From Planctomycetota bacterium (GTDB lineage: Bacteria; Planctomycetota; Planctomycetia; Pirellulales; Lacipirellulaceae), in NCBI GenBank assembly GCA_013286045.1, contig JABDGM010000006.1:1-64000 (forward strand): a stretch of DNA of 64,000 nt, written 5' to 3'. The position numbers and the translations under genes are program-made. The notes beneath the pieces were generated by a model that had not been told where the DNA came from, ran no database searches, and worked only from the letters and a program-made list of their open reading frames with translations. Positions 30,253 through 35,876 of this stretch are shown here, piece by piece. Within the stretch, counting starts at the first letter, position 1. Each line of letters opens with the position of its first letter.

Positions 30253-33200
30253 CTATCGAAAATCCCGGGCCTTTACATCGAATTCTTTGAGCGCATCGCC
30301 CAACGGCTCGATCCGGTTTACGACCACATGAATCACCTTCGTGACGTCAGCATCCACAGTTTGGATGCGCCCGTGTGCGATCCACGCCCGGGCACGGCGG
30401 GCAACTCGATAGAAGCGATCCCACGTTTGACGATGGACGACCAAATTCACCGTACCCGTTTCGTCCTCCAAGGTCACAAACGTGATGCCCTTCGCCGTGC
30501 CCGGCCTTTGACGCAGCAATACTATGCCGGCGACGACTACTGGCGACTCGTTCGAGAGTTCGCCCAAACGCTGTGCCGGTGTGATCCCTAATCGCTGTAA
30601 CTGCTTGCGATAAAACGAAATCGGATGCGCCCGCAACGACAAACCCGCCGTACGATAATCGGCAACTACCTGTTCATATAATTGCATCGGAGGCAACGTC
30701 TCCAGAATTGGTTCTTCGCTCGTTTGCTCGTCATCCCACTTATTAGCTCCAATAGCCGATGACCTACGGTCACCGGAGCCCGGACGGCGTGGCCGTCCGG
30801 CTATCGATTCTTTACCCCCACTATCAAACAACGGCATCGCGCGTCGTTTCTTGTCCTGGCCGAGCGCCTGCCACAATGCTTGCCGTCGTTCAGCACCAAG
30901 CGAGACAAAAGCATCTGCTTCCGCCAAGCGTTTTATTTTTGCTTGCCCCAATCCAGTGCGGCGTGCGAAGTCATCGAGCGATAAAAACGGCCCTGCCTCT
31001 CGAGCATTTTCGATCGCCTTGCTAGCCGCTTCACCCAAGCCATTGAGTATCCGAAATCCCAACCGCAGTTGTGGGTCATTTTTCTCCGTCGCCGCTTCCT
31101 CTTTTTCCAAAATACAGTCCCAGCGACTCCAATTCACATCGACTGGCCGCACCACGACACCGTGTTCTCGCGCATCGCGTATGAGTTGGGCAGGTTGATA
31201 AAAACCCATCGGCTGACTGTTAATCATCGCCGCCGCGAACGCTGCTGGGTAATGGTGCTTCAACCACGCCGAGACATACACCAGCAGCGCGAAGCTCGCT
31301 GCGTGCGATTCCGGAAAACCATATTCGCCAAATCCCTCGATTTGCTGATACACCCGATCAGCAAACTCTCGTGGCAAATGGTTCGCTTTCATACCGGCAC
31401 GAAGCTTCTCCTGAAATTGGCTGATCAAGCCGGGCCTGCGCCAGGCGGCCATCGCTCGCCGGAGTTGATCGGCTTCCCCAGCCGAAAACCCAGCGGCAAC
31501 GATTACGAGCCGCATAGCCTGCTCTTGAAAAATGGGTATGCCGAGCGTTTTTTTTAACACTTCGCGAATTGCGTCGTTGGGGTAGGTGACTTCCTCCTTT
31601 TCTGCTCGTCGCAACAGATACGGATGCACCATATTTCCCTGAATCGGCCCCGGCCGCACGATCGCTACTTCGATCACTAAATCGTAGAACGTTCGCGGCT
31701 TCAACCGCGGCAACATCGACATCTGTGCTCGGCTCTCGATCTGAAACACGCCAATCGTATCGGCACGGCAGATCATGTCGTACACACCTTTGTCATTTGG
31801 CGAGATGGTCGCCAGCGTTAACGCGCGGCCATAGTGCGATTGCACCAAGCCGAAACACTTTTGAATTGCTGTTAGCATTCCGAGGCATAGACAATCGACC
31901 TTCAAAATACCGAGCTCATCGAGGTCGTCTTTGTCCCATTCGATGACCGTGCGGTCCTCCATCGCCGCGTTTTCAATTGGCACCATTTCGCACAGCGGCC
32001 CCTGTGTCATCACCATTCCACCGACATGCTGCGATAAATGCCGCGGAAAACCGATGATTTCATTAACACAATAAATCAGCCGCTGGCCCAAGTCGGATGC
32101 CGGATCGATTCCCACATCCTGGCAGCGACGCACGAATTTCGGATCTTGTGTGTGCCCTTCGATGTTCTTAGCTAGCGCATCAACTCGATCGAGCGATAGC
32201 CCTAACGCCTTCCCGACATCGCGAATCGCCGAACGCGTGCAATACGTGATCACTGTCGCGGCGAGCCCGGCCCGCTCGCGGCCGTATTTTTCATATAGAT
32301 ACTGCAGCACTTCCTCGCGTCGCTCGTGTTCGAAGTCGACGTCGATGTCCGGCACCTCATTCCGCTCGCGGCTAATAAATCGCTCAAAAAGCAGATCGAT
32401 CTCCGTGGGATTGACGGAGGTCACGCCCAAGCAATAGCACACCACCGAATTCGCCGCCGATCCCCTACCCTGACACAAAATCTTTCGCGATCGAGCAAAC
32501 CGTACCAAGTCTTGGACGGTGAGAAAGTACGCTTCGTAATGCAGTTCGCCGATCAGCTGCAATTCCGATTCAATTTGCTGCTGCACTGTTTCCGGCACTC
32601 CGTCCGGATACCGTTCGGTCGCGCCTTTCCATGTGAGCTGCTTCAAATACTCGAGCGGCGTTTGCCCCGCAGGCGCAAGCTCAGCCGGATACTCGTACTT
32701 CAACTGATCGAGGGAGAAGCGGCACCGTTCGGCAATTTCCACAGTCCGCGCGATCGCATCTGGCGCTGTGGCGAAGAGCTCGCGAATAACATTGAGCGGT
32801 CGCAAGTGCCGCTCAGCGTTTGGAAAAAGCAGCGTCCCTTCGGCCGCGGCGACTGTAGTGCCATGCCGAATCGCGGTCAGCACATCGTGCAGCACCATTC
32901 TCCGGGACAGATGGTAATGAACGTCCCCCGCGGCCACGAGTGGCAGATCGGCCTTACGTGAAAACTCCTGCAACCAAGCTAATCGCGCGCGATCATCCGC
33001 CCCGCGCACGAGTTCTGCTAATAAATAACACCGATCCCCAAATATCTCGCGGTAGATCGCAGCCTCCGGCTCTGCCGGGGGTTTATCACGTACGATTCGC
33101 AACCCGGAATCTGACTCAGGGTCGCTAACTATTGCGTCCTCGTAAATCTCCGGCAGAGCCGAGGGCTGAACGCCGGCGATCAGCCCTTCGTTGAATTCCG

Positions 33201-33562: not shown

Positions 33563-35107
33563 TCATTCAAAAATCCCATGGAGAAACCACCGCTGGTCCA
33601 CAAGTCGCTCAAATATCCAAAAGTGGCGGCTCGATTCGGTGGTCACACGGTAATAATCTCGCCGTACTGTCGGCCCGCGCCACCATAATGTTTCGATCCG
33701 CTCTGGTCCCACACACCGGATAACTTGCTCGCGACGCTTTTCCAGCCACACAAACTGCGGAGGACCATCGGGCGCAACACCTTCCACTTCTATCGCTTGA
33801 GGCTTTGAGCACAACACCAACGGGCGCGCGGGAATGCTAACAGACGATGACTGCGGAGATGAATGGCCTCTTTTGGTTACTTGTTTCAGTGCCTGCTTGT
33901 TTTTTCCCAATACCGCTGTCCATTTCACCGCCCGCTCGGGAACTGGGCTCGCACGCGGCTCCGCCCGCAACACGCTTTCGTAGCCCAACCGGCTTCCAAG
34001 CCGATTTACCAACACAGCGAGTTGATGCGGATCGGTCGGCCAGCAATCTGCGAACAATTCGCCCTGCCGCTCGCCGAGCCGCCCCACCACCGCAGCTCGA
34101 AGTTCAATCCGATCCACTTCGCTTCTTAGTTGCACGCGCTCCAAGTGCAGTTCGATAAGCTCCAGTAATTGCCGCGCATTCGCCGAAGGTTGCAACAATC
34201 CAACCTCGAACTGCTGAGGCGTGCAGCCCGCGGAACAAAATGACCCTATCAGCAGCACTGCTCCCTGATCTCGCGAGGTTAACTGCCCTGCTAACTGTTC
34301 CACTAATTGCTCGAAAACGTACAACAGCACAGTTCGATCAGCCGTTGGCTCTTCCAGCACGTGACTGGCTTCCAACGCTGCCGACGGGCGCCGCGGTTCG
34401 ATCAACTCCCGTCCCGCGCCTGTCAATTGATCGAGCCGCAGCAACAACTTCTCGCCAAATCGGGATACCAACCCCTCACGCGGAAGCGCCTTCAATTGGT
34501 CCACGGTTTCGATGCCCAATTCTTGCAGCAGCCCGGCCGCCTCCTCAGAAATCCGCAATGATTCCACGGGCAGGATAAATGACGAATGCTTGGATGACTC
34601 ACCCGCCCCTTCCATGTTGTTAGTCAAAGCTTCATCGAAGTGTGTTGCCGCCCAAGCGGCTCCCACCGTATCCGCGACTCCTAGGCGCACCAAATACCCA
34701 CGCCGCGTGAAAAACTTTTTCACCTGCCCAACTAGCCGCGCCTCGCTCCCCCATAAATGCTCAAGGTTGCCAACGTCCAACAACAAACTCTCCGGCTCCG
34801 CCACCTCTTCAATCGCCACCCGCGGGCTGAATCGTTCGCAAGCCTCGGCGCATTTCACCAGCGCGCGGCGATCACCTTCGGGATCGTATTTCGCAACCGA
34901 CAACCCTCTTGCGAGCGCTTGCGCCTCCACAAGCGGCATGCCCGGCCGCACACCTTCCGCAGCCGCCTTCTGGCAACACACCGCGACCTCGCTGCCGCGT
35001 GGGGCACTACGCACCAGCACCATGGGCCGCCCTTTAAGCTCCGGCCGAGCGCGAACGGCTCGCTGAATCGGCCAAGTCGGTAACCACACGCAAAGGATGC
35101 GGGTCAT
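33563..35107 (-). CDS. imuB: ImuB, Y-family DNA polymerase-like protein
   Basis: MTRILCVWLPTWPIQRAVRARPEL; RFSPRVAIEEVAEPESLLLDVGNLEHLWG; between imuA and dnaE2; start at 35107. Confidence 0.9.
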   Translation of the reverse strand: MTRILCVWLPTWPIQRAVRARPELKGRPMVLVRSAPRGSEVAVCCQKAAAEGVRPGMPLVEAQALARGLSVAKYDPEGDRRALVKCAEACERFSPRVAIEEVAEPESLLLDVGNLEHLWGSEARLVGQVKKFFTRRGYLVRLGVADTVGAAWAATHFDEALTNNMEGAGESSKHSSFILPVESLRISEEAAGLLQELGIETVDQLKALPREGLVSRFGEKLLLRLDQLTGAGRELIEPRRPSAALEASHVLEEPTADRTVLLYVFEQLVEQLAGQLTSRDQGAVLLIGSFCSAGCTPQQFEVGLLQPSANARQLLELIELHLERVQLRSEVDRIELRAAVVGRLGERQGELFADCWPTDPHQLAVLVNRLGSRLGYESVLRAEPRASPVPERAVKWTAVLGKNKQALKQVTKRGHSSPQSSSVSIPARPLVLCSKPQAIEVEGVAPDGPPQFVWLEKRREQVIRCVGPERIETLWWRGPTVRRDYYRVTTESSRHFWIFERLVDQRWFLHGIFE

Positions 35108-35876
35108 ACGTAAAATCACTCTGCACAGTGTGAGCTACATCATCGATTTCCAACGTCACGGAGCCGCCTTCACGCCCACCACGACAATGCACCAGCCCAA
35201 CTTGAGCCAAACGTCCCTGGTTCGCAGTCCGTTGGCCGTTCTTCTCGTGCAACGGACTACAGACAGCCGACCACGGACTAACTTCCAATCTCACATTCGC
35301 CCACGTCGGCTGGCCGCGAGCAGCAGCGGGTCGCAACAGCACGCCCAAAGTCCGTCCAGCTTCGGCCGCTAACTGCAACCGGCGAAACGCTCGACTCTCA
35401 AGCCGCTCGAACTTCCCCCACATCGCCGCCACCACCGGTGAATGCAGCGCTTGTACCGCCGCCCACAGTTCATCCCTCACCGTCTTAGGACGCACCACGA
35501 TCAGCCGCTCCAAATCAACTCCCCACGTCGCGGCCGCCGGCGGATAAAAAGTTTGCGATCGGTCGACGACTACCAACACGCCCCCCTCTCGGCAAGCTTC
35601 GCGCGCACACAATAGCCCCAACGTTGCCGCCCCACTTCCGCTCAAACTGCTCAGCCATTCGATCATCATCCCCGGCCGCAATCCGCCCTCGGGTAATAGC
35701 CGATCGAGCGCCATCACTCCGCAAGAAAAAATGGTGGCTTCGTCGTCCTCCTTCGTAGCTCCCCACCGGCCTAATTGTTGACGTAATCCATCAACTAGCT
35801 GATCGCGCCCGTCCCGCGGCACCGGCTGTTTTGGCCACGACAAATCAGCGGATTCCGATCGAAAAACACTACTCAT
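35034..35876 (-). CDS. imuA: ImuA, RecA-like mutasome protein
   Basis: LPEGGLRPGMMIEWLSSLSGSGAATLGLLCAREACREGGVLVVVDRSQTFYPPAAATWGVDLERLIVVRP; upstream of imuB. Confidence 0.85.
   Translation of the reverse strand: MSSVFRSESADLSWPKQPVPRDGRDQLVDGLRQQLGRWGATKEDDEATIFSCGVMALDRLLPEGGLRPGMMIEWLSSLSGSGAATLGLLCAREACREGGVLVVVDRSQTFYPPAAATWGVDLERLIVVRPKTVRDELWAAVQALHSPVVAAMWGKFERLESRAFRRLQLAAEAGRTLGVLLRPAAARGQPTWANVRLEVSPWSAVCSPLHEKNGQRTANQGRLAQVGLVHCRGGREGGSVTLEIDDVAHTVQSDFTYDPHPLRVVTDLADSASRSRSAGA

Follow-up and report, generated by a model that had tools for sequence, protein, structure and literature searches.

An in-frame, 51-nt palindromic block within the error-prone DNA polymerase gene dnaE2 of a planctomycete is very probably a REPIN, a non-autonomous element of a hairpin family that is dispersed in a family of planctomycetes and moved by a RAYT, and which landed in an ancestral dnaE2 and was tolerated there. 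Its place in the window (the whole 64-kb stretch of DNA that was analysed), its two constituent units and the genes around it are given in Table 1.

A hairpin doublet in the dnaE2 linker

The block, which reads TAGCCGATGACCTACGGTCACCGG-AGC-CCGGACGGCGTGGCCGTCCGGCTA and has TAGCC and GGCTA as its ends, consists of two 24-nt hairpins that are inverted relative to each other with 3 nt between them. The CCGGACGGC/GCCGTCCGG stem is perfect and encloses a loop of 3 nt, and the CCGATGACC/GGTCACCGG stem has one mismatch; two adjacent hairpins inside dnaE2 had been proposed by the first-pass annotation, and both the coordinates and the stems were exactly as described there. The block folded with z-scores of -4.1 as RNA and -3.6 as DNA, and a TAG-hairpin plus hairpin-CTA doublet within 60 nt was found once in the window and not at all in 100 simulated 64-kb sequences (first-order Markov). 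On the minus strand the block is translated as (I)AGRPRRPGSGDRRSSA(I), adding about 17 residues to the protein. Each strand of the 51-mer has one phase out of three without stop codons, and dnaE2 uses one such phase.

Table 1. Features of the window discussed in the text (window coordinates)
Feature	Position	Strand	Basis and remarks
REPIN, head-to-head doublet of two REP units, TAG ends outward	30753..30803	.	51 nt = 17 codons; encodes DnaE2 residues 911-928
Left REP unit, TAG-CCGATGACC-TAC-GGTCACCGG, one mismatch	30753..30776	+	Covariance model R1 (no sequences from the window's genus): 23.7 bits, E 1.3e-4
Spacer AGC between units, 3 nt	30777..30779	.	Read from the sequence
Right REP unit, TAG-CCGGACGGC-CAC-GCCGTCCGG, perfect stem	30780..30803	-	Covariance model R1: 41.7 bits, E 4.7e-10
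AMPLF, DnaE2 residues 899-903, putative clamp-binding motif of the xLPLF type	30826..30840	-	PLF/PLL conserved in orthologues
dnaE2, error-prone DNA polymerase, intact, 1093 aa/codons	30253..33534	-	NCBIfam NF004225, 1405 bits, residues 2-1093
imuB-like gene, catalytically inactive Y-family type	33563..35119	-	Pfam IMS, 58 bits, and cassette position
imuA-like gene	35034..35876	-	NCBIfam ImuA_translesion, 106 bits, E 2e-30; curated cut-off of 150 not reached

Judged by its neighbours and their domain matches, dnaE2 belongs to an intact imuA-imuB-dnaE2 cassette. In the DnaE2 protein, Pfam recognised an HHH_6 domain (residues 792-886) and an OB fold (999-1078); the insert lies in the linker between these two and starts eight residues past AMPLF, a motif of the xLPLF clamp-binding type that has been described for DnaE2 (PMC3919608). 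An AlphaFold model of DnaE2, made from an alignment of 5 rows only, had a mean pLDDT of 38.5, too low to be informative. The window's dnaE2 also contains a second long inverted repeat (33060-33085 / 33143-33168; 26-nt arms, 85% complementary, 57-nt loop), located in a variable portion of the PHP region.

The doublet belongs to a dispersed hairpin family

A covariance model, R1, built on 17 aligned units that all came from genera other than the window's, recovered both window units with TAG outward (E 5e-10 and 1e-4). The stems covary, with 95% of cells paired and a covariation of 0.57 against 0.15 in shuffles, a value that is optimistic as the copies were picked by hand. The right-unit 21-mer hairpin with its GTG/CAC loop was present in nine other genomes of at least three genera, where a control pattern was near zero, and in relatives a second inverted hairpin often adjoins it. 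The REP-like character proposed for the in-frame linker element was thereby borne out, as the element is a member of a dispersed REP-like family.

The genome from which the window comes is a MAG (59% complete, 253 contigs) in which three further strong R1 units were found, at C25, C124 and C18, all outside recognised genes. This brings its strong units to 4, compared with 10 in the congener G002, and many relatives in the planctomycete family carry at least 30-40 R1 units per genome, with no more than 40 candidates scored in each. The earlier idea that the element would have other genomic copies thus held for units of the family and failed for the 51-mer itself, which had no near-identical copy elsewhere in the 59%-complete MAG.

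Among the listed pairs of units, 29 rows were head-to-head and 3 tail-to-tail (L049 and L108 being one place), the head-to-head doublets spanning 49-113 nt; compact doublets of 49-56 nt, like that of the window, were also seen in G002, G076, G032, G035, G040 and G006. The base preceding TAG was C in 30 cases, A in 29, T in 13 and G in 11, the TAG itself being invariant by design, and both window units have A. As the preceding base is not conserved as G, the family is TAG-tagged and not strictly GTAG-tagged. Units mostly lay outside genes: among 97 distinct units examined in an ORF-based sample, an ORF location flanked by domains was found only for the dnaE2 copies of the window and G002 and for L124, and the family is most likely not specialised for genes. 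At L124 (genome G158), a single open frame of 856 aa has VWA and TPR domains separated by a REP doublet (1501-1555), which perhaps fuses two neighbouring genes.

A divergent Y1/HUH clade is flanked by the same units in relatives

In G035, G028, G002, G076, G023 and other genomes, units of the family flank a divergent, Y1_Tnp-like gene of about 160 aa, and in further genomes sibling TAGCCG hairpins flank the gene of this clade. Its matches to Pfam Y1_Tnp are marginal (17.7-23.4 bits, cut-off 23) and it surfaced only among the weak Y1_Tnp matches; its identification as a putative RAYT therefore rests on the HxH and tyrosine columns (H83, H85 and Y143, all invariant) and on the flanking units. 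Loci L246-L273 represent this divergent Y1/HUH-like clade, with TAGCCG hairpins alongside in most genomes and weak matches in both Pfam and NCBIfam. A search of the PDB with the clade gave no meaningful match. Across 44 genomes of the family, a strong homologue of the clade went together with abundant units (Fisher p about 0.001 or below, the p value being indicative as the genomes are related). We infer that proteins of the clade transpose the hairpins.

The typical Y1_Tnp loci of our first sets were without this hairpin family; they carry other TAG-tagged hairpins, at 4.0 per 10 kb compared with 0.24 in dnaE2 loci. The Y1_Tnp genes of the window's own genome, L102 and L103, were rejected as the linked transposase as they are not of the 160-aa clade. 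A sibling hairpin, GTAGCCTAGGGCAACGCCCTAGG, was observed at L102 (1391-1412), 110 nt upstream of one of these genes. That a RAYT might be present in the genome, as had been suggested, was upheld to the extent that Y1 transposase genes of RAYT type exist in the lineage; a member of the linked clade was not found in the window's own MAG, which can be explained by its incompleteness.

The same doublet is present in a second species

In G002, dnaE2 carries a doublet at the same position, in the same frame and of the same total length as in the window. The two DnaE2 proteins have 77% identity, with the same codon used at 51% of the identical residues. All 24 nt of the right unit agree, giving seven consecutive identical codons (AGRPRRP), and the rest of the linker is almost wholly diverged; the left unit differs at most variable stem positions and pairs in both genomes. 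Over 81 orthologue entries, which include the window once and G002 twice, linker length had a median of 43 residues, compared with 73 in the window and 70 in G002, and the doublet was confined to these two genomes. The inserted amino acids were not conserved outside the genus, so that the observation which the first-pass annotation had named as evidence against an insertion was not made. No empty dnaE2 site is known within the genus, G001 being without a close dnaE2 match.

On these alignments, a single insertion that predates the split of at least two species of the genus would be the simplest history; as the comparison is one of two genomes only, another copy may instead have converted it, the hairpin may be under selection, or insertion may have recurred. 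Two other palindromic features were observed in dnaE2 genes of relatives. In G002 (L010) there is a further in-frame, palindromic-looking insert before LRLGL, MQNAKCKMQNAN...NLQFAIGNLQ, with no copies within 336 kb of that genome, and the dnaE2 linker of G196 (L018) contains an unrelated hairpin, CCCCTCTCCC-5-GGGAGAGGGG, translated as PLSPCGRGAGGEG, with no copies within 229 kb of G196.

Discussion

The units described here resemble REPINs and their RAYTs (PMC3116915, PMC2817692) in being short hairpins that carry a tag at their foot, which are dispersed in many copies and pair in inverted doublets with the tags outward, and in that a Y1/HUH transposase gene is flanked by its own hairpin units, here in relatives only. 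They differ in having a TAG without a conserved preceding G, in the divergence of the transposase clade and in that a copy is inside a gene. The GTAG superfamily of REPs has a GTAG tetranucleotide at the unpaired end, where the window has ATAG. GTAG REPs of Planctomycetes, including R. baltica, and their head-to-head dimers are described by Di Nocera et al. 2013 (PMC3733652), who also report that REPs within genes lean to DNA repair, name DnaE2 among the tagged proteins, and regard neutrality in linkers as one possibility. Our family shares with theirs the occurrence of REP doublets in genes of replication and repair, DnaE2 among them. That survey, of 24 families, is older than these genomes, and its families may include the present consensus. 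The Class 3 TnpA-Y1 proteins of Planctomycetes (PMC6006769) are likewise divergent and hairpin-flanked, but have a CnGA foot and a YV[VI]xEQ motif, where we found a TAG foot and YLPKH around the tyrosine.

A chance palindrome in a GC-rich linker under low constraint might have been considered, as the linker is variable and GC-rich stems occur there in a few other orthologues; this has a negligible probability and is refuted by the empty simulated windows, by the multi-copy family in relatives with controls near zero, and by detection of the units with a model trained on other genera. The first-pass annotation had compared the block to the palindromic elements of Rickettsia (RPEs), a family which characteristically enters protein-coding genes in frame. 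Like these, the block is palindromic, in frame, tolerated and translated as an insert, here a basic tract. However, RPEs have many copies in genes and no dedicated transposase reported, whereas units of the present family are mostly outside genes (in the ORF-based sample of 97) and have a linked Y1-like gene in relatives; RPE-4/6 moreover carry a CGTC tag, according to PMC3733652, and the tag here is TAG. We consider an RPE-type family very improbable, and the comparison gave way to that with a REPIN with a linked RAYT in relatives, which matches best.

The identity of the right unit in all 24 nt between the window and G002, against 51% codon sharing elsewhere and a neighbouring linker that is almost all different, together with a left unit that has changed with its pairing kept, would suit hairpins under selection as a regulatory element in dnaE2 mRNA or DNA (for example in attenuation or mRNA stability) and not a tolerated mobile insert. 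Yet the doublet is carried by two genomes only and is absent from every other orthologue sampled, and identity of the right unit could also mean that another copy of the family has recently replaced or converted it, so that regulation appears quite unlikely. We attach a similarly low probability to a co-opted mobile element, in which selection would keep the doublet because the polymerase is tuned by its hairpin, at the level of mRNA or DNA, or by the basic tract of 17 residues added beside the clamp motif. Somewhat less unlikely, though still not favoured, is a hot spot that received an insertion independently in each of the two species: the left units are dissimilar at most of the variable stem positions, and other genera have such compact doublets with different left units. 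Against this, the shared residue position, frame, orientation and length and the identical right unit are most simply one insertion.

In the REPIN reading that we prefer, the element would be moved as single-stranded DNA by a RAYT-type Y1/HUH transposase, from the clade whose genes have these units on their flanks in relatives. One copy would have entered dnaE2 before at least two species of the genus diverged. The insert was probably tolerated because its 51 nt preserve the frame, the phase used is free of stops and the site is a variable linker between the clamp motif and the OB fold; the clamp-binding motif and both flanking domains would have been spared. We infer that the insert is functionally neutral for DnaE2.

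REP insertions in genes, DnaE2 included, are already known, having been reported in 2013 (PMC3733652); what appears to be new is a planctomycete repeat family, with a TAG rather than a GTAG tag, and a candidate transposase clade. The block provides a clean, datable example of a REPIN turned protein sequence, and the gene concerned is itself a source of mutations. The 2013 observation of REPs in genes for DnaE2 and other repair proteins is here repeated in another phylum. Attention is drawn as well to a transposase clade which is poorly covered by Pfam and NCBIfam and which, in planctomycetes, is linked to a hairpin family of its own. Should the doublet be kept by selection after all, a mobile element would have been co-opted into the mutagenesis cassette of this genus.
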